Below are positions 3,663 to 63,564 of a stretch of DNA of 64,000 bases, piece after piece. Each line of letters begins with the position of its first letter. Position 1 is the stretch's first letter. The notes beneath the pieces were generated by a model. It was not told the DNA's origin. It saw only the letters and a program-made list of their open reading frames with translations, and searched no databases. Source of the DNA: an uncultured bacterium (GTDB taxonomy: Bacteria > Verrucomicrobiota > Lentisphaeria > Oligosphaerales > Oligosphaeraceae); contig CACYQT010000009.1 of assembly GCA_902776645.1 (NCBI GenBank), positions 1 to 64,000 of the forward strand, given 5' to 3'. Both the position numbers and the translations under genes were made by a program.

Positions 3663-6233
3663 ATGTTTGTCAAACACTGTCTGCCATTGGCCTGCATCGG
3701 CCTGCTGGCCTTGAACGTCGTCTCCGCCCAGGAGGAAGTTCCTCAGCCGGAAGTGCCTCCACGGCTGTTGATTGACACACAGGACGCCGCCATTTGGAAC
3801 GGCGGCTCCCCGGACACGACCATTGTCCGCGAAGGCATTCCCGCCACCATCCGATGGGAGCACGCCAAGGCCCCCGCCCTCCGTGCCACAAAATTTCCAA
3901 CTGATTGGACCGGACCGCACAACGCCATCGAATTCTGGCTCCATTCCAACAAGGAAAACCGCGCATCGTTCATGTTCATCATCGCCTCCGAAAATCCCAA
4001 CACGGACGGCATGGACTACTACCAGATGAAAATCACCCTGAATTTCTCCGGCTGGCGGAAATTCACGGTCCCATTGAAAAATTTCGGCATCGCCCGCGAA
4101 CCGCTTGGCTGGAATCAAATCACCGCCGTTTACTTCACCGCCGAAGGCTGGGGAAACACGCCCAATCCGGAATCCGTCGTCAACGTCGGTCCGTTCCGTC
4201 TGGTCTATATTTCGCCCACCCATGGGCCGCGTGTCAAAGACAAAGAATTCTTCAACTGCCTGAATCTTGACTATCCGGGCATGGAAGCCGTCAAGGCCGC
4301 CGTCACAAACAACGACCTCAAAGCCGCTAAAGCCGCTTTTGTCAAGCACTTGAAGACACGCGAAAAACCGCTTTGGTATTTCGACTGGCGGAAATTCAAC
4401 GATCCGTCCTCCCGCAATCCGAACTACAATCTGACCAACGCGGACAAATACGCCTCCAATCTGCTCGTCTCCTGCGGCATCTGGCATCAGTTCGGCGAAA
4501 AAGTCGAATGGGACATCAATCCGACGGAACTCAAATACAACGAATGGACATGGCAGCTCTCCCGCCATCCGTTCTGGACGGAGCTCGGACGGGCCTACTG
4601 GGCGACCGGCAATGAAAAATACGCCAAGGCGTTCGTCAGCCAGCTCCGCTCATGGATCATCGACAATCCCGTCCCGTTCGACGCGGGCAACGTCGCCTAT
4701 TCCCGCTGGCGCACCATCGAGACGGGTATCCGCACGTTCTCGTCATGGCCGAACTCCTTCTTCTATTTCCTTGCGTCGCCAAGCTTCGACGATGACTCTA
4801 TCATCTTGATGGTCAAGTCTTTCTACGAACACGCCATTCATCTGCGGATGTTCCCGCAGCGCAACAACTGGCTCTGCATGGAGATGAACGGCCTCTACCA
4901 CATCGGCACCCTCTTCCCCGAATTCAAGGAAGCCGCCGAATGGCGCCAATACGCGGGTGACCGCCTCTATTCCGAAATGAACATCCAAGTCTATCCCGAC
5001 GGCGCGCAGGTCGAACTCGCCCCCGGCTACCACGGTGTCTCGCTGGTAAACTTCCTCGGCACGTATAAGTTGGCTCAGCTCAACAATCAACCGCTTCCGG
5101 CCGACTATGTCTCACGCCTTGAAAAGATGTACGGCATGTATCTCAACGTGACCTCCCCCGCCGGCCAGACGCCCGCGCTCAACGACTCCGGCTGGGCGGG
5201 CACGAGAGGCCCCTGCAAAGAGGCCGCCGAACTCTTCCCGAACCGCAAGGATTTCCTCTATTGGGGCACCGAAGGCAAGGAAGGCACGGTTCCGTCGTTC
5301 ACGTCCAATTTCATGCCCTACGCAGGATGGTTCACCATGCGCACGGGATGGGATCCGGAAGCCCTCTGGCTCCACATGGAGGCGGGGCCCTTCGGAGCGG
5401 GCCACCAGCATGAAGACAAGCTCACCTTCGCCATCCACGCCTACGGAACACGACTGCTGACGGAAGGCGGAACATACGCCTACGATTCGTCGCAGTGGCG
5501 CCGCTACGTCCTCTCCGCCCGCGCCCACAACATCGTCCGCGTCGATGGCCTTGACCAGTGCCGCTGGAAAGACAACCGCTTTAATCTCACGGAGAAACCG
5601 CTGGACAACCGCTGGATCACGAACGAGCAGTACGATTTCGCGGAAGGCATCTACAACGAAGGCTTCGGCAGGGAGTTGCAACTGAAGGTCAGCCATAGCC
5701 GCGCCATCCTGTTCATCAAGCCGAACTACTGGCTGCTCTTCGACGTCATGTCGCCGGAGGATGATCAGGAGCATGAATACACGTCATGGTTCCATTTCAA
5801 CACGGACCAGACGCTGAAACTCGACGCCTTCAACGGCTACATCAGCGCCGATGAAAACACCGCCAATCTGCTCATCGCGCCGTTGAATCCCAACGGTTTG
5901 GATGCGCAGAACCTCTGCGGGCAAGAGCAGCCTGAAGTCCAGGGATGGCTTCCAGCCGGCGGCTACAGATGCCGCCCCATTGCGACGCCCACCTTCGTCC
6001 GCAAGGCGAAGGGCGTCCATGCGGAGCCATATCTGCTGTATCCCGTCCGCGCAGGCGAAGAGCTACCTGTCAAGCAAATCAAATCATTGGGCGGCAATAG
6101 CTTCGAAATCCTGTTCAAGGACGGTTCGAAGCATGCCGTCCAATTCACGCTCGGCAAACAGTATCTTGATTCATTGAAATGGTCGTCGTTTGACCAAAAC
6201 GGCAAATTGACATCCAGCATCGTCATTGAATAA
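3663..6233 (+). CDS. Secreted heparinase II/III family polysaccharide lyase
   Basis: Exported lyase-like protein of 856 residues. A signal peptide (MFVKHCLPLACIGLLALNVVSA) is followed by a beta-rich module of about 160 residues (IEFWLHSNKENRASFMFII onward) resembling a carbohydrate-binding domain. Next come an alpha-toroid region (KPLWYFDWRKF, FWTELGRAYWATGNEKYAKA, NNWLCMEMNGLYHIG) and a C-terminal heparinase II/III-like beta-sandwich (FGAGHQHEDKLTFAIHAYG, RAHNIVRVDG). In this family a Tyr/His pair performs beta-elimination on uronate-containing polysaccharides such as heparin/heparan sulfate or alginate. The substrate here is not determinable. The start at 3663 is fixed by AAAGGAG 5 nt upstream; the frame is open from 3582. 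A GH39 gene follows after 19 bp, so the two are probably one transcript. Confidence 0.85.
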   Translation: MFVKHCLPLACIGLLALNVVSAQEEVPQPEVPPRLLIDTQDAAIWNGGSPDTTIVREGIPATIRWEHAKAPALRATKFPTDWTGPHNAIEFWLHSNKENRASFMFIIASENPNTDGMDYYQMKITLNFSGWRKFTVPLKNFGIAREPLGWNQITAVYFTAEGWGNTPNPESVVNVGPFRLVYISPTHGPRVKDKEFFNCLNLDYPGMEAVKAAVTNNDLKAAKAAFVKHLKTREKPLWYFDWRKFNDPSSRNPNYNLTNADKYASNLLVSCGIWHQFGEKVEWDINPTELKYNEWTWQLSRHPFWTELGRAYWATGNEKYAKAFVSQLRSWIIDNPVPFDAGNVAYSRWRTIETGIRTFSSWPNSFFYFLASPSFDDDSIILMVKSFYEHAIHLRMFPQRNNWLCMEMNGLYHIGTLFPEFKEAAEWRQYAGDRLYSEMNIQVYPDGAQVELAPGYHGVSLVNFLGTYKLAQLNNQPLPADYVSRLEKMYGMYLNVTSPAGQTPALNDSGWAGTRGPCKEAAELFPNRKDFLYWGTEGKEGTVPSFTSNFMPYAGWFTMRTGWDPEALWLHMEAGPFGAGHQHEDKLTFAIHAYGTRLLTEGGTYAYDSSQWRRYVLSARAHNIVRVDGLDQCRWKDNRFNLTEKPLDNRWITNEQYDFAEGIYNEGFGRELQLKVSHSRAILFIKPNYWLLFDVMSPEDDQEHEYTSWFHFNTDQTLKLDAFNGYISADENTANLLIAPLNPNGLDAQNLCGQEQPEVQGWLPAGGYRCRPIATPTFVRKAKGVHAEPYLLYPVRAGEELPVKQIKSLGGNSFEILFKDGSKHAVQFTLGKQYLDSLKWSSFDQNGKLTSSIVIE

Positions 6234-6252
6234 TATATAAGGAACAATCACC

Positions 6253-7593
6253 ATGGCAGACAAAATCATCGCTGATTTCAGCGTCTCGACAGGAAAAGTC
6301 CGCAAGGAGCTTTACGGCTCGGGCCTTCACATCTTCACCGCCCATCGCCACATCCATGACAACACCGACGTGTTCAAAACGCTCCGTTTTCCAATCGTCC
6401 GCAACCATGACTGGGCGTTGAACAACCCCAACCAACGGATGATCGACGTGCATCACATCTTCCCGTTGATGCATCTTGATCCCGCAGACGAAAAAAACTA
6501 TGTTTTCGGCCCTTCGGACGAAGTCATCCGCCTCGTCTATGAAGCGGGTTCCAAAGTCTTCTATCGCCTGGGCACAAGCATCGAACACACGGAAGGCGTC
6601 CATTTCAACGCGAATCCGCCGGAAGATTTTGAAAAATATGCTGAAGTCTGCGCCGCCATCATCCGCCACTACACGAAAGGCTGGAACAACGGCTTCCATT
6701 ACGATATGAAATATTGGGAAATCTGGAACGAACCGGAAGGCCGCATCAACATGTGGACGGGAACGGATGAACAGTTCGCCAAATTCTTCGCCATTGTGCT
6801 CAAACGGTTGAAAACGGAATTCCCCGAACTGAAGATTGGCGGCCCCGCCCACTGCAGCTTCCGGGCGGATCTCATCGACATGCTGAAGGCCGAATGCGAC
6901 AAGCTGGACGTCAAACCTGACTTCTATTCCTACCACATGTACGCCAACAACTTGGATACGCCGAAATATCTCGCCACAGCCCCGCGCGAATATCTGGACA
7001 AAATCGGCTGGACGGAAACGGAAACCGTCCTCAACGAATGGCATTTCATCCGCGCTTGGAGCGGCGTCCATTCCAATATCACGGAGGAATCCTACCGCCG
7101 TTCCGTCGAAGGGAAAGACGGCCTGATGGGCATCAACTCCGCCGCCTTCAACATCGCCACATTCTGCATCTGGCAGGATTCAAAGCTCGATTCCGCATAC
7201 TATTACGGCTGCGGCACAGGCAGCTGGGGCATCACCTATCCTAGCACACGCTGGAACAAGAACTACTATTCGCTGCTGATGATGCGCGACATGGTCTATG
7301 ACTTCCCGAACAAAGCCGCCGTCTCCGGCGGCGGAGAAACGCAGCGCGCCCTCGCCGCCGTTTCAGAAGACGGCAAGCAGGCCGCCGTCCTCATCGGCGA
7401 CCTGTGCGGTTCCAGCATGGATATCACAGTGGAAATCAAAGGTTTCGGATTCGCTTCCTCCGCGACATGCACGATTCTCGACGACGCCCGTGAAAACGCA
7501 ACCGTCGAAATCAAACCGGACAAGAACGGCCTCTACCATCTGACGAAATCCGAGCCCGGATCCGCCGCTTTCATGCTGATTCTGAAGAAGTAG
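6253..7593 (+). CDS. GH39-like glycoside hydrolase (beta-xylosidase/iduronidase type)
   Basis: Cytoplasmic clan GH-A hydrolase of 446 residues without a signal peptide. The acid/base Glu is seen in YWEIWNEPEG (about E160) and the nucleophile in TVLNEWHF (about E262), the arrangement of GH39 (beta-xylosidase and alpha-L-iduronidase). The barrel is followed by a small beta domain (AVSGGGETQRALAAVSEDG to the end). AAGGA lies about 9 nt before the ATG. Placement directly behind the secreted heparinase II/III gene suggests that it acts on oligosaccharides released by the lyase; an iduronidase-like role would fit glycosaminoglycan breakdown, but this is inference. A strong hairpin follows the gene. 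Confidence 0.8.
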   Translation: MADKIIADFSVSTGKVRKELYGSGLHIFTAHRHIHDNTDVFKTLRFPIVRNHDWALNNPNQRMIDVHHIFPLMHLDPADEKNYVFGPSDEVIRLVYEAGSKVFYRLGTSIEHTEGVHFNANPPEDFEKYAEVCAAIIRHYTKGWNNGFHYDMKYWEIWNEPEGRINMWTGTDEQFAKFFAIVLKRLKTEFPELKIGGPAHCSFRADLIDMLKAECDKLDVKPDFYSYHMYANNLDTPKYLATAPREYLDKIGWTETETVLNEWHFIRAWSGVHSNITEESYRRSVEGKDGLMGINSAAFNIATFCIWQDSKLDSAYYYGCGTGSWGITYPSTRWNKNYYSLLMMRDMVYDFPNKAAVSGGGETQRALAAVSEDGKQAAVLIGDLCGSSMDITVEIKGFGFASSATCTILDDARENATVEIKPDKNGLYHLTKSEPGSAAFMLILKK

Positions 7594-25717: not shown

Positions 25718-25722
25718 CAAAT

Positions 25723-25797
25723 TGGCTCCGACAGCAGGGCTTGAACCTGCGACCTAGTGGTTAACAGCCACCCGCTCTACCACTGAGCTATGTCGGA
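25723..25797 (-). tRNA. tRNA-Asn (GTT), copy 2 in transcription order
   Basis: A 75-nt cloverleaf including encoded CCA. Acceptor TCCGACA pairs perfectly with TGTCGGA, the D arm is GCTC/GAGC, the anticodon loop CTGTTAA gives anticodon GTT, and the T arm is GCAGG-TTCAAGC-CCTGC. It is identical to the second copy 14 bp away. Confidence 0.96.
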
Positions 25798-25811
25798 ATG
25801 GTAAATCTAAT

Positions 25812-25886
25812 TGGCTCCGACAGCAGGGCTTGAACCTGCGACCTAGTGGTTAACAGCCACCCGCTCTACCACTGAGCTATGTCGGA
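25812..25886 (-). tRNA. tRNA-Asn (GTT), copy 1 in transcription order
   Basis: Same 75-nt sequence as the copy at 25723-25797, with anticodon GTT and encoded CCA. The two genes are in tandem and appear co-transcribed from the candidate promoter at 25914-25941 to the terminator at 25680-25717. asnS, the enzyme that charges this tRNA, lies about 31 kb away. Confidence 0.96.
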
Positions 25887-28775: not shown

Positions 28776-29453
28776 ATGAAATCAGATGAAGAAACAACCA
28801 TGCCGAAGAAGACGATTGAAAATGGACTGTTTGTAACGTTCGAAGGGCCGGAAGGCTCCGGAAAAACGACGCAGATCAAGATGCTGGCGGAACGGCTGAC
28901 CGAACAGGAATACGAAGTCGTCGTCACGCGGGAGCCTGGCGGCACGATTCTCGGCGAACATATCCGCAAGTTGCTCATAGAGTTCGATGAAGAGGATATC
29001 GCGGATGAGGCGGAGCTGCTGTTGTTCGGCGCATCCCGCGCGCAGCACATGCGCCGCAAGATCCTGCCCTGCCTGAAACGCGGCGGCATCGTCTTGTGCG
29101 ACCGTTTCGTCGATTCGACGACCGCCTACCAGGGGTATGCGCGCAAACTGGACTTCGGCTTCATCCAGAATCTGCATGCGTTTTCGCTGTGCGGCCGCTG
29201 GCCGGATCTGACGTTCGTTCTGGACATCGACGTCGATACCAGCTACCAGCGGATGCACAAGCGGTATGCCAACTCCGCCCCCGTCAACGACCGCATCGAG
29301 GCCGAGAGCCGTGCGTTCCATACCGCTGTGCGGGAAGGATTTCTGGATATCGCGAAGAAAAATCCGGGCCGTGTGAAAGTCATTGACGCGAATCGGCTTC
29401 CGGAAATCATCGCGGCGGATCTCTGGTGGGAGGTCTATCATGCCATTGTCTGA
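28776..29453 (+). CDS. tmk: Thymidylate kinase
   Basis: Cytoplasmic kinase phosphorylating dTMP to dTDP, 225 residues. The P-loop is FEGPEGSGKTTQ, followed by VVTREPGGTILGEHIRKLL, the DR motif in VLCDRFVDSTTAYQGYAR and PDLTFVLDIDVDTSYQRM. The ATG at 28776 has TAGGAG about 11 nt upstream; a second ATG at 28800 (MPKKTIENG) lacks a good site but sits closer to the conserved domain, so the start is uncertain by eight residues. Its 3' end overlaps holB by 14 bp, the common tmk-holB pairing. Confidence 0.92.
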   Translation: MKSDEETTMPKKTIENGLFVTFEGPEGSGKTTQIKMLAERLTEQEYEVVVTREPGGTILGEHIRKLLIEFDEEDIADEAELLLFGASRAQHMRRKILPCLKRGGIVLCDRFVDSTTAYQGYARKLDFGFIQNLHAFSLCGRWPDLTFVLDIDVDTSYQRMHKRYANSAPVNDRIEAESRAFHTAVREGFLDIAKKNPGRVKVIDANRLPEIIAADLWWEVYHAIV

Positions 29454-30486
29454 TTTCAAGGAGTCTTTTCCGTTGCTTTGCAGCCGTTTGGAACAGGCGA
29501 AACGGAACGGTCGCACAGGTCAGGCGTATCTGTTTCTTGGAGACGATCCCGTCTTTCTGGAAAAATTCGCCCTGGCATGGGCGCAAACGGCGGCCTGCAC
29601 GGGAGATACGCCGACGGGAGAGTCCTGCGGCCATTGCCATCCATGCGACCTTTTCCAACGGAACTGCTATCCGGAATGCCTCTTTCTGCGGCCGCAGTCG
29701 AAATCGCGGCAGATCACGGTCGAAGCGATGCGGCAGTTTGAATACGACATCAATCTCGCGGCGACGCCCGGCCTGCTGAAAATCGGCATCATCGTGGAGG
29801 CGGAATGCCTTGGCGAAGAAGCCCAAAACGCGTTCCTGAAGACACTTGAAGAGCCGCCGCCGAACACGTTGCTGCTGCTGCTGACGGTGAATTCGCGAAA
29901 ACTGCTGCCGACCATCCGCTCGCGCTGCCAGACGATTTCGCTGTTGCGGAACCGCCAGAACTACGATCTGGCCGCGCAAAAAGGACTTTTCACGGTCCTG
30001 TCGAAACTGAAACGCGGTGCGGGGGCGGGAATCGGCCTGAAGACCAGCGCGCGAATCACGGCGATGTTCGCGGAACTGCACAAGGATGCCGAAGCGTTGG
30101 CGGAAGAGACGAAGGACCATCGGTGGGACGACACGGAGGACGCGCGCATCAAGAAGCAGCTCGAAGAGGAATACATCGCAAAGATCGAAGCGGAATACGT
30201 CCGCTTGCGCGAATCGATGCTCAGCGCGTTGACGGCGTGGTTCCTGCAGCGCTTTCTCATCTGCCAAGGCGTCAGAAAAGAACTGTTGCCGCATGCTGAA
30301 ATGCTTGAGGCCGAAGAAGATATCTTCACCGCTCCGCCCAAGCCGGAAGAAGCGGAAGAGGACATCCGCCTGGCGGAGGAGCTGACATCCTGCATCAAGG
30401 CGAACGTCGATGAACGGCTTGCGTTGGATGCCTTCTGCCTGACGGTTTCGGAGAAAAAGCCAAAACCTGCCTTCGGCAGAGCCTAA
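29440..30486 (+). CDS. holB: DNA polymerase III delta' subunit (clamp loader)
   Basis: Clamp-loader AAA+ subunit of 348 residues. TGQAYLFLGDDPVFLEKFA occupies the P-loop place without the GKT residues, as expected for the non-ATPase delta' role. The zinc module is CGHCHPCDLFQRNCYPEC, followed by ECLGEEAQNAFLKTLEEPPP and the sensor/SRC motif TIRSRCQTI. GGGAGG lies 6 nt before the ATG, inside the end of tmk. The C-terminal third is highly charged. The stop codon TAA falls inside the first unit of a heptamer array. Confidence 0.9.
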   Translation: MPLSDFKESFPLLCSRLEQAKRNGRTGQAYLFLGDDPVFLEKFALAWAQTAACTGDTPTGESCGHCHPCDLFQRNCYPECLFLRPQSKSRQITVEAMRQFEYDINLAATPGLLKIGIIVEAECLGEEAQNAFLKTLEEPPPNTLLLLLTVNSRKLLPTIRSRCQTISLLRNRQNYDLAAQKGLFTVLSKLKRGAGAGIGLKTSARITAMFAELHKDAEALAEETKDHRWDDTEDARIKKQLEEEYIAKIEAEYVRLRESMLSALTAWFLQRFLICQGVRKELLPHAEMLEAEEDIFTAPPKPEEAEEDIRLAEELTSCIKANVDERLALDAFCLTVSEKKPKPAFGRA

Positions 30487-30508
30487 AGCTTAAAGCCTAA
30501 AGCCTAAA
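30481..30508. repeat. Heptamer array GCYTAAA x4
   Basis: Units GCCTAAA, GCTTAAA, GCCTAAA, GCCTAAA run without gap. The first unit supplies the holB stop codon (TAA at 30484-30486). Confidence 0.7.
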
Positions 30509-30579
30509 GCGAATTGCAACTCATTGCCAATACAGAACTTCCAGAATATTCAGAACATCCAGTCTATCCAGAAGAAAAT

Positions 30580-30819
30580 ATGCCAATCTACGAATACTCC
30601 TGCAAAGAATGCGACCATAAATTCAGCCATCTTCACAAACGTCTCGGCGAAGCGGCGCCGAACTGTCCGAAATGCGGTTCCGCCAATGTGAAGAAACTGT
30701 TCTCAACATTCAGCGCCGCAACGGCTTCCGCCTCGTCCTCCTGCGCGGCGGCGGATGCCTGCCCCCATGCTCAGGAAGGGCATCATTGCTGCCCGGGCTG
30801 CTGCCACCATCACGGTTGA
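30580..30819 (+). CDS. FmdB family zinc ribbon protein
   Basis: Small protein of 79 residues with the FmdB/CxxC_CXXC_SSSS ribbon: MPIYEYSCKECDHKFSH and NCPKCGSANVKKLFSTFS, giving two CxxC knuckles. The tail is rich in Cys and His (CPGCCHHHG) and may also bind metal. Members act as small regulatory or metal-binding proteins; the role is unknown. The frame is open from 30514, but MPIYEY is the invariant family start. The macrodomain gene follows after 18 bp. Confidence 0.85.
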   Translation: MPIYEYSCKECDHKFSHLHKRLGEAAPNCPKCGSANVKKLFSTFSAATASASSSCAAADACPHAQEGHHCCPGCCHHHG

Positions 30820-30837
30820 CCACCATAAGGAAACACC

Positions 30838-31329
30838 ATGGAAATCGAAATCATCCTCGGCGACATCACCAAGCTCGACACGGATGCCATCGTCAACGCC
30901 GCGAATTGCACGCTGCTTGGCGGCGGCGGTGTGGATGGCGCGATTCATCGCGCCGCCGGCCCTGCCTTGCTTAAAGAATGCATCAAAATCGGCGGCGGCA
31001 AGACGGGCGAAGCCTATCTGACTGGTGCCGGGAAACTTCCATGCAAATACGTCATCCACACGCCTGGCCCTGTCTGGCGCGGCGGCAACCATAACGAACC
31101 GCAACTGTTGGAGTCGTGCTACGTCAACAGCCTCAAACGAGCCGCCGAAAAACAGTGCGTCTCCATCGCGTTTCCATGCATTTCCACGGGCGTCTACGGC
31201 TATCCGCATGAAGCGGCGGCGAAAATCTGCCTGGACGTCCTGCGAAACTACCAAGGCGACTATCCGAAAAAAGCCATCGTCTGCTGCTTTTTGGAAGAAG
31301 ACAAACGCATCTACGACAGTCTGTTGTGA
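30838..31329 (+). CDS. Macrodomain protein (O-acetyl-ADP-ribose deacetylase type)
   Basis: Cytoplasmic protein of 163 residues binding ADP-ribose and its derivatives. The MacroD/YmdB pattern is complete: VNAANCTLLGGGGVDGAIH with the catalytic Asn and Asp, RAAGPALL, GEAYLTGAGKLPCKYVIHT and FPCISTGVYGYP. It likely removes O-acetyl from OAADPr or hydrolyses mono-ADP-ribose. AAGGA lies 7-8 nt before the ATG. It follows the FmdB-type gene in the same direction. Confidence 0.92.
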   Translation: MEIEIILGDITKLDTDAIVNAANCTLLGGGGVDGAIHRAAGPALLKECIKIGGGKTGEAYLTGAGKLPCKYVIHTPGPVWRGGNHNEPQLLESCYVNSLKRAAEKQCVSIAFPCISTGVYGYPHEAAAKICLDVLRNYQGDYPKKAIVCCFLEEDKRIYDSLL

Positions 31330-31503
31330 ATCCATCTTCTCGCGTTTTCATGAAGGCCATGCGATTATGTGACCATGACGCATTTTCGAGCTCAATTCGG
31401 TGACTTGACGGTTTTTCATTCGGTGGGTTGACGACTTGACGATTCGTCACATATCATTGCCAAACATGCGCAATATGAAATTGCAACAATAGGAGAATAC
31501 CTC

Positions 31504-32331
31504 ATGGTTACTTTTTCCAACTCATTGACGGTCAATCCAGAAAATGAAAAAGCAAGAAAGCAATTGGAAAAACTATCGGAGGAATATTCTTCGCTTTTGC
31601 TGGATTACGCCCAGATGACCGGTCCGTTGAAGAAGAATCTGGAAACAGAGTACATGATGAAAATCGGACGCAAGGAATATGAACTCTACTCCTTGAATGT
31701 CAGTATCTTGCAAATACGCCGAAAAATCGCCATTCACCAGGCGGCCGTTAACGACGGAAGTTCTATCTCCGAAGAGGAAATAGAGCAAATCATCGCAAAG
31801 GAGTTCGCCGAATACAAGGGAGTGCTGGAAGAGCACCAAAAAGCTATCCAAAAGGCTGAAGAACATTTTGGCACTCCGAAAATGACAGATAAAGAGCATG
31901 AAAAATTGCTAAAACTTTACAAAGGATTGGTGAAAAAGCTTCATCCGGACATTCACCCGAACCTGCCGCCTGCCGCCGCCAATCTTCTCAAATCTGTTAT
32001 CGACGCTTATAAGTCTGCTGATCTCGCGGAGCTTGAATTGCTGAACGACATGGCTAATGACATTCTAAAAGGAAAAGATGTCGATCTTGAAATCCACAAT
32101 TCGCTTGAATTGATGCAGAAGCAAATTGCAAACCTGAAACAGAAAATCTTAGATTTGAAAAACAAAATGAAGACGTTTGAGGAAAAACCACCGTTCTGCT
32201 ATAAAAAATTACTTTATGACTCATCGGCTGTTCTTGCCAAACGGAAGGAACTGGAACAACAAATAGACGAGTATAAATCTGCATTGAGCCAACTGCAAGA
32301 ATTTTATGACGGATTGAGGAGTCAGGCATGA
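31504..32331 (+). CDS. Coiled-coil protein with J-like HPD motif
   Basis: Unrecognised protein of 275 residues, mostly helical. Residues 10-125 are predicted coiled-coil-like; LLKLYKGLVKKLHPDIHPNL (about 135-154) resembles helix II and the HPD tripeptide (147-149) of DnaJ J domains, and NLLKSVIDAYKSADLAEL resembles helix III. A second coiled-coil stretch runs 195-275. The first J helix is not obvious, so this is a J-like rather than a proven J domain. AGGAG lies 8-9 nt before the ATG. It overlaps the HIRAN gene by ATGA (4 bp), so translation is probably coupled. The pair looks more AT-rich than its neighbours, hinting at transfer. Confidence 0.7.
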   Translation: MVTFSNSLTVNPENEKARKQLEKLSEEYSSLLLDYAQMTGPLKKNLETEYMMKIGRKEYELYSLNVSILQIRRKIAIHQAAVNDGSSISEEEIEQIIAKEFAEYKGVLEEHQKAIQKAEEHFGTPKMTDKEHEKLLKLYKGLVKKLHPDIHPNLPPAAANLLKSVIDAYKSADLAELELLNDMANDILKGKDVDLEIHNSLELMQKQIANLKQKILDLKNKMKTFEEKPPFCYKKLLYDSSAVLAKRKELEQQIDEYKSALSQLQEFYDGLRSQA

Positions 32332-32750
32332 CAGAAAAAACGACAAGCGGTGGAGGAATGATTCCTGTAGAGACTTGGGAGAAAATCGTTTCCGCATTCA
32401 GTGGTAGCGGTGGTGGTCTTGTTCCGTTGCCCCATATCCATGAGATTTTCTTGATCGACTGCCGCATTGCGGGAACGACACATGTGGAGGGAATCGACGA
32501 CAAGACAGCGAATATCGACAAAGGCACGTTATTGATGTTTCAACGTGAAAAGGACAATCAATATGACGCCCTCGCCATCCAGATTCTCAACGACAAAAAG
32601 GAGAGAATCGGTTATGTTCCCAAAGCGAAGAATGAAGTCCTTGCCAGACTTATGGATGCAGGAAAACTGATTTTTGGTCGAGTGGAGGAAAAAGAAAAAG
32701 TCGATGACTGGATCAAAATCAGCATCAAAGTATTCATGAAAGATGTCTGA
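32328..32750 (+). CDS. HIRAN domain protein
   Basis: Protein of 140 residues. The N-terminal 35 residues are Gly/Ser-rich; residues about 38-135 form a HIRAN domain: IFLIDCRIAGTTHVEGIDD, GTLLMFQREKDNQYDALAIQ, ERIGYVPKAKNEVLARLMDAG. HIRAN domains bind DNA ends or 3' single-stranded DNA in eukaryotic HLTF and Rad5, and stand-alone forms occur in bacteria with unknown roles. Its ATG overlaps the stop of the J-like gene, implying that the two proteins work together. Confidence 0.85.
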   Translation: MTEKTTSGGGMIPVETWEKIVSAFSGSGGGLVPLPHIHEIFLIDCRIAGTTHVEGIDDKTANIDKGTLLMFQREKDNQYDALAIQILNDKKERIGYVPKAKNEVLARLMDAGKLIFGRVEEKEKVDDWIKISIKVFMKDV

Positions 32751-32887
32751 AAAGACCAATAGATCATAAATAACTTTATATTGATTTAGTTGTTAATCTC
32801 AAACTTGTCACAGGGTAAAAGACATAGAGTTTTCCAATCGCTTTGAATAGCGTCATGCTATCCATCAAGACCAACCATCATGGCTTG

Positions 32888-35800
32888 CTATTCTCGGCCA
32901 GAATAGACTTTGACTTGTATGGAACTCGCCGCGGAACCGACGCCTTCGACTTTTATGTGATTCCCTTTGCCTTTGATGCGAAGGCTCGTCTTGACCTCAA
33001 ATGATTCAACTTGTTTTCCCGCTCCGTCATAGACGCTGCATTTGCCATCGGGACTAATCAGCACATGTTCCTTGTCGCGAAGATTGACGGGAAGCTCTAT
33101 ACGGCTTCCGTTGAATTCAACCTTCACATTTCCGAGTCTCATGTCTTGTTTTTCACTGCCAACTATCTGCGGGATGTTGTCGCCTTTATGCAACCCACGC
33201 ATGTCCGCCAGCGCGACAGAGCATTCGTTGTATATCGGTAGTCCGTTGTAGAGAACGATGAAGCATTTGACTTTCTTGAAGTCGAAACCATGCATTGCGT
33301 CAGAGAGCGGCAGGCAAAGCGTCCGCCATCCCGTGAAATCAATCGTCTGGATCCAGTCGATGTATTTGCCGTTTTCGTCCCAGAATTGAATCCGTAGCTT
33401 TTCGCCACCGCCATCGCCGTTCAAATTCAGCAGTATCCTGTCATAGGCGGAAAGATCAAGGCCATTCGCGAATGTAATCCCCTTCGATGTCCAATCGCCG
33501 CCGGCGGAATTCAACGATTTGAAAAGCACGCCTTTTCCATTGATATTACGTCCTTTCGGAGCCGCCTCCATGGAGGCGAGAGCGCCATTGGCATGAGTAC
33601 CCGATGCATCGCGCAGAAGTCCACTTCCGCTGACGAATTTACCATATATATTTTCCGCGCCTTCCGCGAAGGCGGCGGGATCGGCAAAATCCATAATGGA
33701 TTCACCAACATTCGCCCCAACCGTCATAGGAGCGTCACCGACAACATGCGTCAACACGATTACGGCAGGCGCGGATTCATCCGCGCCATATCTCGCGAAA
33801 TCGAAATTCTTCTCAAACGCAGTTTCTCCAATGGAAACGAACGACGGCGGCAGCACAGGCATCAGCTCCATATTGCCGAGCATTGTGCGAAGCGCATCTC
33901 TGTCGCCACGAAGCATCCTGTAATCCGTCGGCTCTGGCTCAGCAGGTTCTTTGTACTTGAATGTGAAGATCGTTTCACCTCTGAAAATACATGTCAACTC
34001 GCAACGCGCATCACCATTGCCACCATCCGCCTTCAGATCAACACGGTTCATGCCTTTTGCAAACTGTGGCGGAACGGGCCCCTTGCGGCTCATGATAAGA
34101 CCGCCGTTGCGTTCGAAGACGTTGATCGTCCCGTCCGCATGCCATTCCGCATAGTCGTTTGCTTCCAACAAGATAGGTAGCGTCACATCCGTTCCATCAA
34201 CGCTGACGATCGGATGCTTTAGCGAAACATTATATTCTTTCAATGCCTCAACTGGGCCGACGAGCACATGACTGTCCCTCTTCGGCGGCATGTCGTTCAG
34301 CAACAGGCTGACTCCCGTGACTTCACCATAAGGATATGGACGATAGAGCGGAGCATGCGCCTGGTATGGCCATTTGTAATCGAAATAGCGTTCATCCTCC
34401 GCCCTGTCGAGAATAAAGCATTTCCATCCCGTGAAATCCAAAACGATATAGTTCTCCCGAACACTGCCTCTGGCCGTTGTGCTGTTGAGCTGCACATTCA
34501 GGACACCGCCCTGCCCGTCCGCCTTCACCCACACGCACAGAGGACGCTTATCCAATAGCGAGATAGGCTTGTCGAACTCATAGCTGAAATGGCAGCTCTG
34601 AGAGCGTTCATTGGATTTGTTGTCAAACGAAAGATCGATTGCGGCAGTGCCTTCAGGCGTCTTTTCAGAGGAGACAGCTATCGCACCCTCTGTCGAAAGC
34701 TTCTTGAAGGGAATGCCTTCCGTACAATCCGCAATCACAAGATTGTCGTCGGCAGCATGCTTTGCAATTGACGGGAGCGCACGGATACGCAGAATTGGTG
34801 ACTGTGCGTCGTATGGATTTTCGAACGTTTGCCCAAGCGGCGCAACAAGCGTGCCATCTGCATGAAGCACAAATGGCCCGGAATAGCTCTGACGGACAAT
34901 TTTCCACGAATCGCCATCAGGCAGCAATGCATGGCGCATCTTCCTGTCATAGAGTTCTTTGCAGATATTTTGCGGAAGCAGGCGTTCCTGTTTGATTTTA
35001 TCACACAACCTTATATAACGAAGCATCTCATTCATGCGTTTGTTGGCGTAGTACTGCCCATAGTCCACTTGGACAGAAATCGGACTGCTGGTGGCCGCCG
35101 CTTTGAGACAGAGAAGCTCCAATTCATCAGGCGTCGCCGCGTTCGTGCTTGGTGACCAGACATGCGCCCTATACCAGCCAACGTCGCCCGTAAACATGTT
35201 ATAGGAATGTAGAACGGGAATATAGCCTTTGAAGCGCATGGTATAGACATCGCGACCATAGTACATCGGATCGAACGCGGGGGCGCCGCGCACAATCGAA
35301 TGCCACGAATTATGCGTATAGAGATTGTTGCCTCCCGCAAAGACAGGCTTGTGGAGACGCGCTTGCAACGCATTGACGAAACGGCCCGTATTGCGCCATT
35401 TTGGCGACTGCGGAATCCACTCCTCGCCAGCGTCGAAATAGACCATGTCGGCGGAAGTTTCGTTGAGAACATAGGCCTGCCGCTCGATAATTTCGTCAAA
35501 AAGCGTGCTTTCGATGTCCGGAGCATAGATGCATCCTCCCCATATCGGCCAGCAGTTCACGATAAGACCTATCTTCTGGCCCGCTTTGCAGGTCTGGCGG
35601 TTGGTTCCTCTGAAGCCGCGTTCGCAATTCTGGAAGGTATTGTCGGTATGGGATTTGTAGCGGACAATCTCACCGTTGACATAGAGGTCGCCATCCGTCT
35701 CAGGCCAGTCTTTCAGCGGCCCTTCGACTTCTATGGTGGTTGCCTGGTCGTCGAGATCTTTCGTAAGGATTGCGAATTGTTTCTGGAGAAGGCGGCTATC

Positions 35801-52897: not shown

Positions 52898-55204
52898 TCA
52901 CTGCTGGCGGAGGACGTTTTCAACGACAACGATCGGAACCGTCCAACCTTCAACCTGACGGGCCTTTCCAACGACCGTCACGTCGCGGTTCTCCCAAACC
53001 TGCAGATTCATCCGCGGGCTTTGCAGGAAGCAAACCGCGACCAGCTGTCCATTGACCTGCCTGCACAACGCATGGGACGCACTCCGCGTCGCGTTCTGGC
53101 GCAAGGAGATAAGACGGCCGGACATCGTCGTCGGCTGGGGGAGGTTCGGCTGCGGATGCTTCGCCATTTCCGCAAGCTCCCTTTCCTCTGCCAGGCGTCT
53201 TTCCTCCGCCTTCGCCTTCTCAGCGGCCTTGCGCTTCTCTTCGGCGGCTTTCTCTTCGGCGGCCAGGCGGCGCGCCTCGGCGGCTTTCGCCTTCTCCTCC
53301 TCAAGCTTCTCCGCCGCGGCCCTCGTCCTCGCCTCGGCCTCCGTCTGCGCCTTCACGGCCTCCTTCTTCGCGGTCTCCGCGTTCTGACGCGCCTTGTCCG
53401 CCTTCGCCTTCTCTTCGGCAAGCTTTCTCGTCTCGGCCTCGGCCTCCTTCACGGACGCGGCGACTTTTGCCTTTTCGGCGGCCGCCTTCTCGGCCAGTTC
53501 CTTCACGGCCTTCGCATCCTCGCGAACCTTCTTCAAATCAGCCTCCGCAGCCTCCTTCGCCGCTTTCGCGTCTTCACGAGCCTTCTTCAAATCGGCCTCC
53601 GCGGCCATCTTCGCGGCCGTCGTCGCCTCCAACGCCTCGCGCTGCTTCTGCAGCTTCTCCATTTCCTTCTTTTCACGCGCGGCGGCGGAAGCCTGCGCGG
53701 CCTCCGCTTCCTTCGCGGCTTTTTCCGCCGCGATACGCGCCGCTTCGGCGGTCGCCCGCGCGCGTTCCGCAGCCGTCTTCTCTTCCGTCAGCTTCTTGAC
53801 GGCGGCCTGTTCCTGCTTGGCTTTGGTTTCAGCCTCAAGTTTCTCCGCCGCAGCCTTTTCGGCCAGTTCCTTGGCGGCTATCGCATCTTCACGCGCCTTC
53901 TTCATGGCCGCTTCGGCCTCCGCGCGCTCCGCCGCCAAGGCGTCGCGCTGCTTGCGCAGTTTTTCCAGTTCCTCGCGGCTCTTCGCCGTCGCGGCCTCCA
54001 ATTCCTTCCGTTCGCGTTCGCTCGCGGCTTCAAGTTCCTTTTTCTCACGTTCCGCGGCCGTCGCCTTCTCCTGCAACTTGACGCGTTGCGCATCCAACGT
54101 CGCCACAGCGGCCTGCAGGCCGGAGACCTTCTCCTCCGCGCTCTTCTTCGCATCCTCCAACGCCGCGCTTTCCTGCTTCAGCGTCGTCAGTTCGCGCTCC
54201 GCGTCCGAACGGGCCATCATCATTTCCTTGATGCTCGACTCAAGCTGGGCAAGACGCTTTTCGTTGATTTTCATGTTCTCTTCGGCCTTGGCGACCTGCT
54301 CGCGGGCACTTTCGGCACGCTTCATCAATTCCGCTTTTTCGTCCTCCAATTTCTTGGACGACACGGCGGCCTCCATCTTCAGCTTCGTCAGCTCCTCGCG
54401 GGCCTTCTTGATCTCCGCGTTGCGTTCATCGATGGCCTTCTGCCATTGCGCCTTCTCGTTCTTCATCTCCGACGCCGTGCGAACCGCCGCGTCGCGTTCT
54501 TTCTCTAGACGCGCAAGTTCCGTGGCCGCACGCGCTTCCGCCTGCTCACGCTCCGAACGGAGCTGCTCCGCCTTCTGGGAGGCCGTCTGGGCCTCCTTCT
54601 CAAGACGGGCCGATTCGTCGCGAAGCTCCTTCAACGTATCGGTCACCTTCGCCTGGTTTTCGCGAAGCCCCGTGGCCTCCTTCTCCAGCGTCGCCAGACG
54701 CATGACCGCCACTTCCGGCTTGTCGACAGGAACCGCCAGTTCGCCTTCCAGCATCTGGATATAGACTTTGCTCACCCACGCCGTCAGGCCAAGAGGCGCC
54801 TTCACCGGCCAGAAATTGTCCACCATCTTGTTGCGGATCTTCAGATGGTCGCCGATCTGAGCCTTCCCCAACGCCGTGAAGACGACGCCCGGCCCCGCAT
54901 AGATCAGGACTTCCTTATGGACGATGCCATCCGCGTCGACGCCGTCAGACGGAACCCAGCCCGTCACTTCCTCCGGCACTTCGACGCGATACCAGCCTTC
55001 GCTTTCACCGACGATTTTCACAGTGTCGCCTTCCTGGAACTTGCCAAGGCTCTCATAGTGCGTGCCGGGCCGTGCGCGGATCACGACGGCATGCGCGTTC
55101 ACACGCCCTTTCCGCAGCATCCCCATGCCACTCTGCCCATGCACGCCCACGGCGAAAACGCCCAGCATGGCGAACACCATCATTATCCGTTTCCAATGCG
55201 TCAT
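52898..55204 (-). CDS. Exported protein with tandem SH3b domains and long coiled coil
   Basis: Protein of 768 residues. A signal peptide (KRIMMVFAMLGVFAVGVHG) is followed by two bacterial SH3 repeats at about 35-90 (VIRARPGTHYESLGKFQEGD, VPEEVTGWVPSDG) and 92-155 (VLIYAGPGVVFTALGKAQIG, APLGLTAWVSKVYIQML). About 530 residues of Ala/Glu/Lys-rich coiled coil follow, with many EKAAAEK-type heptads, and a small C-terminal beta domain (GRLISLRQNATRSASHALC, LQVWENRDVTVVG). It may be an envelope or peptidoglycan-linked spacer protein. GGAGG 6-7 nt upstream fixes the start; the frame is open to 55429 without support. Confidence 0.75.
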   Translation of the reverse strand: MTHWKRIMMVFAMLGVFAVGVHGQSGMGMLRKGRVNAHAVVIRARPGTHYESLGKFQEGDTVKIVGESEGWYRVEVPEEVTGWVPSDGVDADGIVHKEVLIYAGPGVVFTALGKAQIGDHLKIRNKMVDNFWPVKAPLGLTAWVSKVYIQMLEGELAVPVDKPEVAVMRLATLEKEATGLRENQAKVTDTLKELRDESARLEKEAQTASQKAEQLRSEREQAEARAATELARLEKERDAAVRTASEMKNEKAQWQKAIDERNAEIKKAREELTKLKMEAAVSSKKLEDEKAELMKRAESAREQVAKAEENMKINEKRLAQLESSIKEMMMARSDAERELTTLKQESAALEDAKKSAEEKVSGLQAAVATLDAQRVKLQEKATAAEREKKELEAASERERKELEAATAKSREELEKLRKQRDALAAERAEAEAAMKKAREDAIAAKELAEKAAAEKLEAETKAKQEQAAVKKLTEEKTAAERARATAEAARIAAEKAAKEAEAAQASAAAREKKEMEKLQKQREALEATTAAKMAAEADLKKAREDAKAAKEAAEADLKKVREDAKAVKELAEKAAAEKAKVAASVKEAEAETRKLAEEKAKADKARQNAETAKKEAVKAQTEAEARTRAAAEKLEEEKAKAAEARRLAAEEKAAEEKRKAAEKAKAEERRLAEERELAEMAKHPQPNLPQPTTMSGRLISLRQNATRSASHALCRQVNGQLVAVCFLQSPRMNLQVWENRDVTVVGKARQVEGWTVPIVVVENVLRQQ

Positions 55205-55257
55205 CACGTTCCTCCAGTTCTTGCTTCCTTTCACGACCACATGCAATGCATGTCCAT

Positions 55258-56799
55258 TTATTTCTTCTGGTCTCCAATGCTGTCTTTTCCGATCCAGCAG
55301 TACGTGCACAGGCACTCGCGTGTCAGTTCCGTGTTGCCGGATTCCTTCGCCACGGCCAGAACCGCGTCCAGCAAATCCTCCAGCTTCTGGTATTTCAGGG
55401 AATCCAGTTTCAGATCCTTGCAAATCCACTCGACCATCTTCTTATAGCGTTCCGACGTCTCGTCCATGTATTCGTCCAGATGGGCGTTGCAGTCGCCTTC
55501 CAGCGCCTCGATCGCCCTGCGCGCCGCCAGTTCCATCAGGCTCTTCGCGCGGGAGAAATTCAAATACGGGCAGTTGAACAGGATCGGCGGGCAGGCGGAA
55601 CGGACATGGACCTCCTTCACGCTGATGTCCTCCTGACGCAGACGCATGAACGTATTGCCAAGCTGCGTGCCGCGGACGATCGAATCCTCGCAGAACAAAA
55701 GCTTCTTGTCCTTGATGAAATGCGGAATCGATATCAGTTTCATCTTCGCGACTTTGGCGCGGTCGGACTGGTCCGGCGGGATGAAGCTGCGCGGCCACGT
55801 CGGCGTGTATTTCACAAACGAACGCTTGTACGGCAGGGCGGCCTCCTGCGCATAGCCCAACGCATGCGCCGTGCCGGAATCAGGCACGCCCGCCACGGCG
55901 TCGAACTGACGGTCGCCTTCATCCTGCCGCGCCAACGCCGCGCCGCATTCGTAGCGGACGGCCTCCACGTTCACGCCTTCGTACGACGAGGCCGGGAAAC
56001 CGTAATAGACCCACATGAACGTGCAGAAATGCATCGGCCCCGTCGGCGGCAAAACGTCCTTGACGCCGTCCGGCGTGATCAGCACGACTTCGCCCGGCCC
56101 GAGCCAGCGGTCGATCTTGTATTCCAGATTATGGAACGCGCAGGTCTCGAAGGTCGCCGCATATGATTTCTTCTCCTTCTCGATTTCGCGTTCGCAATGG
56201 ACGCCGTTGTCATCCGTGCAGACTTCCGTTTCCTTGACCTTCTCGACCTTGGAACCGATGACAAGAGGCGTGCGGCCATAGCGGTCGCGGGCGGCGTAGA
56301 TGCCGTCCTTCGTCAGGACGAGCATGGAGCAGGAGCCCTGCACTTTGTCCTGCACGCAGCGGAAACCCTCTTCATACGATCCGGACATGCTGATCAGGGA
56401 GGCGACCATCTCCGTCGGATTCACTTTGTCGCCAGTCATTTCCGAAAAATGCGTCCGCTGGCTGCGGAACGCGCTTTTCTCAAGCTGATCCATATTCGAT
56501 ACGACGCCGACCATCACGATGCCGAACGTTCCGATATGGCTGAACGTCATCAACGGCTGGTCGCCCGTATCGCTGATCGACCCGATGCCCATGTTGCCCT
56601 GCAGATGTTCGAGGTCGTATTGGAACTTGCTGCGGAACGGAGAGTTGCGGATATCGTGGATAAAACGCGTAAAGCCATTCTTGCCGTCATGCACCAGCAG
56701 GCCGCCGCGCTGGTTGCCCAAATGCGAATGGTAGTCCGTCCCGTAGAACAAATCCTCCGCGCACCGGCCCGACGACACAACACCGAAAAAACCACCCAT
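55258..56799 (-). CDS. PurF-like amidophosphoribosyltransferase paralogue lacking the catalytic Cys
   Basis: Protein of 513 residues with the glutaminase-plus-PRTase architecture of PurF. It opens MGGFFGVVSSGRCAEDLFYG instead of MCGI..G, so the nucleophilic Cys that normally becomes residue 1 is Gly. GSCSMLVLTKDGIYAARDRYG and the region near RTPLVIGSK keep the Ntn-domain pattern. The PRPP-binding motif is LFCEDSIVRGTQLG, close to the canonical DDSIVRGTT. An insertion with charged residues (KEKKSYAATFETCAFHN) lies in the middle. It cannot be assumed to use glutamine and may use ammonia, or may not be in purine synthesis at all. AAAGGA lies about 10 nt before the ATG. Confidence 0.8.
   Translation of the reverse strand: MGGFFGVVSSGRCAEDLFYGTDYHSHLGNQRGGLLVHDGKNGFTRFIHDIRNSPFRSKFQYDLEHLQGNMGIGSISDTGDQPLMTFSHIGTFGIVMVGVVSNMDQLEKSAFRSQRTHFSEMTGDKVNPTEMVASLISMSGSYEEGFRCVQDKVQGSCSMLVLTKDGIYAARDRYGRTPLVIGSKVEKVKETEVCTDDNGVHCEREIEKEKKSYAATFETCAFHNLEYKIDRWLGPGEVVLITPDGVKDVLPPTGPMHFCTFMWVYYGFPASSYEGVNVEAVRYECGAALARQDEGDRQFDAVAGVPDSGTAHALGYAQEAALPYKRSFVKYTPTWPRSFIPPDQSDRAKVAKMKLISIPHFIKDKKLLFCEDSIVRGTQLGNTFMRLRQEDISVKEVHVRSACPPILFNCPYLNFSRAKSLMELAARRAIEALEGDCNAHLDEYMDETSERYKKMVEWICKDLKLDSLKYQKLEDLLDAVLAVAKESGNTELTRECLCTYCWIGKDSIGDQKK

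Positions 56800-62580: not shown

Positions 62581-63564
<984 letters not shown>

Follow-up and report, generated by a model that had tools for sequence, protein, structure and literature searches.

A J-like coiled-coil protein and a stand-alone HIRAN protein, encoded by overlapping reading frames in a 64,000-nucleotide stretch of DNA from an uncultured bacterium (the whole stretch analysed, hereafter the window), together constitute a rare, mobile unit of two genes, with copies in three bacterial phyla or more. The two domains, their conserved pairing and co-divergence, the overlap of their frames and the accessory status of the pair are established here, and the pair retains both the J motif and a part of the HIRAN DNA pocket. 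Both open reading frames were confirmed where an earlier note on this DNA had placed them, including the ATGA overlap that it had described (Table 1). Ribosome-binding-like sequences precede each gene, and a promoter-like sequence lies ahead of the J gene; promoter-like sites as a class, four found against 2.6 ± 1.6 in shuffles, were not clearly above chance.

Table 1 Positions of the gene pair and its parts in the window.
Feature	Position	Strand	Basis or remark
J-like coiled-coil protein gene	31504..32331	+	275 aa ORF
HIRAN protein gene	32328..32750	+	140 aa ORF
ATGA shared by HIRAN start and J stop	32328..32331	+	sequence
Ribosome-binding-like AGGAGA ahead of J gene	31491..31496	+	sequence
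Ribosome-binding-like GAGGAG ahead of HIRAN gene, inside the end of J gene	32316..32321	+	sequence
Sigma-70 promoter-like TTGACG-18-TATCAT, 10/12	31428..31457	+	46 nt before J start codon
J-like region, residues 129-191 (counterparts of J helices II and III, then a helix IV-like segment lacking KRxxYD)	31888..32076	+	
HPD tripeptide, residues 147-149	31942..31950	+	conserved in homologues
HIRAN domain proper, residues 42-137	32451..32738	+	Pfam PF08797; Foldseek to 3k2y and HLTF
N77-x-Y79-D80 motif, counterpart of HLTF N91/Y93/D94	32556..32567	+	
Accessory segment carrying the pair	31404..32878	.	missing from same site in same-genus genome

The first protein had been proposed to carry an HPD tripeptide in a J-domain-like hairpin within a coiled coil, a proposal now supported by a family profile and by the predicted helix layout. 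Searched alone against Pfam DnaJ (PF00226), the 275-aa protein gave a sub-threshold match (18.5 bits, cut-off 27.8) beginning at profile position 12 of 63, while the same model was matched by all nine diverse homologues in the first family alignment, with a best value of 2.5e-8. A family profile made from 16 homologues, with no DnaJ among them, matched more than 30 DnaJ structures (best E=4.4e-6), including the DnaJ chain of 5nro, in an alignment covering helix II, the HPD and helix III, so the profile identifies the hairpin as a J domain. In DnaJ, the positions Tyr25, Lys26 and Asn37 around the HPD face DnaK. Across 31 J homologues with a mean identity of 29%, HP was present in every sequence and D in 30, the single exception reading HPS; the Tyr25 position held Y or F in 31/31, the Lys26 position a basic residue (K/R/H) in 28/31, and the Asn37 position N or H in 31/31. 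The HPD and its neighbouring positions are thus among the most conserved residues of a highly divergent protein, which argues for selection on J function, and the conservation of the HPD itself points to the use of Hsp70. Genes for DnaK and for two ordinary J proteins are present at other sites in the host genome.

An AlphaFold2 model of the J protein (pLDDT 83, 8-sequence alignment) placed the HPD loop between helices at residues 129-146 and 156-170, followed by a helix at 174-191, with the hairpin embedded in long coiled-coil helices. A whole-chain Foldseek search of this model against the PDB returned nothing significant (best E 0.07, all long-helix proteins) and was uninformative, so the J homology rests on the sequence profiles and the helix layout. 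A complete four-helix J domain was not found, as the protein has no canonical DnaJ-like helix I and no KRxxYD end, and we therefore term it J-like rather than a full J-domain protein. These absences, together with the HPS member and the window protein's score below the Pfam cut-off, would suit a J-like decoy or pure scaffold, in which a J-derived hairpin no longer drives Hsp70 and the coiled coil simply holds HIRAN at its target; we regard this as unlikely, given that the HPD and its DnaK-facing neighbours are among the most conserved residues at about 29% identity. A more distant coiled-coil protein in another genome (G1036, locus L164) has the same hairpin with no HIRAN nearby, indicating that the architecture of coiled coil and hairpin is wider than the pair.

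HIRAN-type domains are known in humans to grip DNA ends. The assignment of such a domain to the second frame was borne out by Pfam HIRAN (PF08797; E=3.2e-16, 59.4 bits, cut-off 24.7) and by the predicted fold. The AlphaFold2 model of the 140-aa protein (pLDDT 75, 8-sequence alignment) adopts the HIRAN beta-barrel fold as judged by Foldseek, matching Lactobacillus lp_0118 (3k2y) with an E of 1.8e-9 and a TMt of 0.91, human HLTF HIRAN, DNA-bound forms included, with a TMt of about 0.65, and the HLTF HIRAN-DNA complex 6kcs with an E of 4.5e-7. In addition, the J-linked HIRANs share an N-terminal PF-x-EIFL segment that lies beyond the Pfam domain.

Prokaryotic HIRAN domains have been described as uncharacterised (PMC11090510). 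In HLTF, Y72 and Y93 border a dinucleotide cavity and stack on bases (PMC4666394), and the N90A/N91A mutation disrupts HIRAN function (PMC11237066). The equivalents of HLTF N91 and D94 were invariant in all 29 J-linked HIRANs, and the Y93 position was F, H or Y in each of them, whereas the R71 and Y72 equivalents were not conserved across the set, so that DNA-end binding by the J-linked HIRAN is plausible from its sequence rather than established. The loss of R71 and Y72 would also fit a pair that serves a specialised chaperone task and plays no part at DNA, in which HIRAN is protein-binding or regulatory and the client is a protein, as for AtcJ in Shewanella, a dedicated short bacterial J protein (PMC6715715). 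The upstream neighbours of the pair vary (Sel1-repeat proteins, an AAA+ ATPase, LeuRS), and a DNA link is accordingly not obvious in every case; however, the invariant N91 and D94 equivalents and the recurrence of restriction genes nearby speak against this reading, to which we give a low probability.

The earlier note had suggested searching genomes for co-occurring neighbours, and the two genes proved to be conserved together. With the hairpin matched as a J domain by profile and the genes kept together, neither of the two outcomes that the note had named as refuting its reading was observed. A HIRAN-only search, covering 289 genomes of the window's phylum, 396 of the phylum of a Bacteroidales genome, 399 of that of a Lachnospiraceae genome, and viral contigs, found 24 strong non-seed HIRAN homologues in the three phyla and the viral contigs. 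The J gene lay directly upstream in 22 of these 24, mostly overlapping or within about 100 bp, compared with none of 26 weaker genomic HIRANs (within 1.5 kb). Searching the 399-genome sample with the J profile recovered the seven genomes in which the HIRAN search had found the pair, along with one weak match, and this strength of pairing in both directions rules out a chance association of J and HIRAN. The J and HIRAN trees largely agree, and their distance matrices correlate with a Mantel r of 0.89 (0/2000 permutations as high); gene overlap and co-divergence together point to a J-HIRAN complex. Within the three phyla in which it turned up, some 2-3% of genomes carry the pair. In a sample of 389 genomes from the phylum to which an alphaproteobacterial MAG belongs, no strong HIRAN of the pair type occurred, the best match scoring 74 bits.

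Some genes depart from this arrangement. Two strong HIRANs, L087 (G946) and L094 (G617), have no detectable J gene in about 15 kb, and a Kapaibacterium J homologue (L010:3547-4467) has no pair-type HIRAN anywhere in its genome by profile, so the J protein can occur alone. In L099 (G513), the HIRAN gene of the pair contains an in-frame TAA, and the module looks decayed there. On an IMG/VR contig (L040:7217-7939), the gene upstream of HIRAN encodes a J protein reduced to its C-terminal part, with no HPD, and adjoins phage genes and a recombinase. Plasmid and phage collections yielded nothing when searched with the J protein and only HIRAN domains of 29-38% identity when searched with a HIRAN homologue, the plasmid match having no J protein annotated upstream.

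The pair had appeared more AT-rich than its flanking genes, and its GC content of 0.427 is indeed the lowest in the window (mean 0.557, sd 0.041), in which no other stretch of 1,247 bp is as low. The J gene was missing from all four same-genus genomes searched. In one of them (G002), sequence aligning to window positions 29363-31332 (88%) and 32879-34259 (85%) is separated by only 113 bp in place of 31333-32878, and in another (G004), the shared left flank extends to 31403 and then jumps to 37383, with the pair missing from both. From this patchiness and the composition, insertion is inferred to be likelier than loss. In the 1.7 kb examined for mobile-element borders, there was no insertion sequence and only a short imperfect 17-nt direct repeat. 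The macro-domain gene upstream of the pair in the window was rejected as part of the unit, as it is present without the pair in G002 and G004. Elsewhere, the window contains a pair of identical tRNA-Asn genes that form an exact tandem duplication of 89 bp (25720-25886), a gene on the minus strand (52898-55429) for an 843-aa Ala/Glu/Lys-rich coiled-coil protein with an N-terminal part that appears SH3-like, within which the strong AT skew at 53-54 kb falls, and a run of about 24 CGT triplets (62832-62902).

The components of the pair are known, while the two-gene system appears undescribed. Like DnaJ and other J-domain proteins (PF00226), the J-like protein has the helix II-HPD-helix III arrangement with conserved positions around the HPD, but its hairpin lies inside a long coiled coil without a canonical helix I, G/F or zinc regions. 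It resembles the short specialised AtcJ (PMC6715715) in apparently having a dedicated task and partner; unlike in DnaJ and AtcJ, that partner is a HIRAN protein, and the pair is accessory and mobile. The HIRANs of HLTF/Rad5 and lp_0118 have the same fold and share the core R-N-x-[FHY]-D-A-I motif. They differ from the HIRAN of the pair, which is a stand-alone protein of 130-140 aa with a conserved PF-x-EIFL segment at its N terminus, has lost R71/Y72 of HLTF, and is paired with a neighbouring J protein rather than fused to a helicase. McrBC-type restriction, coiled coils and Hsp70-type chaperones also come together in McrBC-linked systems such as CoCoNuT (PMC11090510); these carry their Hsp70-like domain as a fusion with McrB or McrC, whereas the J protein of the pair is separate and most copies of the pair are not with McrBC. 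No NCBIfam model scored above its cut-off for either protein, and no description of a HIRAN and J-domain pairing was found in the open-licence literature, so that the suggestion of an undescribed two-gene module apparently holds.

HipL kinases and HipI-HipN operons (PMC8262856) likewise combine a prokaryotic HIRAN, a one- or two-gene layout and proposed DNA binding, but their partner is a HipA-family kinase or a HipS domain, with no J protein. Identity with HipL or a HipN-type antitoxin was rejected, as the 140-aa protein contains HIRAN only and its partner is a coiled coil with a J-like hairpin, and so was identity with the PADLOC candidate PDC-M03B (230-255 aa model), as the match (2.4e-13) covers positions 126-228 of 250 in the model, the HIRAN part only. 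HIRAN domains in HipA-family kinases and putative antitoxins (PMC8262856) and in PDC-M03B, and the mobile, patchy and overlapping two-gene layout, would nevertheless be compatible with abortive defence or a toxin-antitoxin-like arrangement, the partner protein being controlled by HIRAN as a DNA sensor, as proposed for HipN. We consider this very doubtful, because the J protein has no recognised enzymatic or pore-forming domain, no kinase is present, the PADLOC match is confined to HIRAN, and orphan HIRAN and orphan J genes exist.

Restriction genes recur among the neighbours of the pair, with McrBC-type genes at two loci. At L082, McrB (AAA_5), McrC (PF10117), J and HIRAN are arranged head to tail, and at L038, an LlaJI-type endonuclease (PF09563) and an AAA partner lie upstream of the pair on the same strand; as both loci belong to one clade of the J tree, these associations may represent one event. 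L013 and L036 both have Mrr genes nearby, with a type I R-M system as well at L036, Vsr and Dcm genes (by sequence appearance) are found near L041, and other loci have helicases, a YhcG-type nuclease or an Eco57I-type methylase nearby. Judged by one ruler, 13/31 pair loci had defence-type neighbours compared with 2/19 control stretches, a comparison whose queries were drawn from the near set, in which several loci are close kin and whose controls hold type I R-M genes too. The association with restriction genes is no more than suggestive, and the enrichment, too weak after the control, was rejected as proof of function.

Many copies, the window's included, lie among housekeeping genes, and the L008 copy adjoins LeuRS. 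A Sel1-repeat-type protein is encoded directly upstream of J in one Bacillota clade (L009, L039, L085 and L086), its gene overlapping J in two of the four, and one closely related Bacteroidota group has a HAD/phosphate-binding context; no third gene recurred universally across the loci. In two genomes, small proteins that resemble each other in sequence (KWNP-S-Y start) and possibly have an EVE/PUA-like domain are encoded just upstream of J (L013:2611-3138 and L015:941-1504), the L013 one having no Pfam match. At L009, an HTH-HipA-like gene pair lies two genes ahead of the module (5276-6903, by sequence appearance only), and a repetitive ORF upstream of the pair at L016:1687-1932 (GTSPRAWGK / HPHGRGEK) resembles a translated CRISPR array. 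A restriction-control role, in which DnaK protects self by disarming or recycling a restriction nuclease that sits on cut DNA of the host itself, would explain the apparent operons with McrBC (L082) and the LlaJI-type system (L038) and the Mrr or type I R-M genes near L013 and L036, but is highly improbable, as most copies, including that of the window, have no restriction gene beside them.

Taking these observations together, we tentatively favour, at somewhat less than even confidence, the reading that the J-like protein is a putative co-chaperone of DnaK, brought by HIRAN to DNA ends or single-stranded DNA. On this view the pair would be a self-sufficient accessory module, spread horizontally, whose product is a specialised co-chaperone of Hsp70 (DnaK). 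The J-like hairpin of the coiled-coil protein would recruit host DnaK and trigger its ATPase, while the co-translated HIRAN protein would bind the coiled coil and direct the J-HIRAN assembly to 3' ends or single-stranded DNA. DnaK might then remodel or remove DNA-bound proteins, such as a complex engaged in replication or cleavage; the most likely setting would be conflict with foreign DNA and restriction, or the repair that follows them. The missing helix I and KRxxYD, the HPS member, the lost R71/Y72, the housekeeping contexts and the orphan genes all count against this co-chaperone reading. A new class of mobile immunity or repair module, whose dedicated J protein and HIRAN sensor would take host Hsp70 to DNA ends, where it dismantles nucleoprotein complexes that are foreign or stalled, would amount to chaperone action targeted at DNA ends; it seems rather unlikely on present evidence.

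J proteins decide where Hsp70 acts, and a J protein tied, through overlapping genes and shared inheritance, to a domain of the DNA-end-binding type would directly link protein remodelling and DNA ends in bacteria. The pair offers a compact two-gene system for testing a prokaryotic HIRAN, with the HPD and N-x-[FHY]-D motifs as ready-made mutational switches, and its frequent restriction-gene neighbours make a role in conflict with phages or plasmids directly testable.
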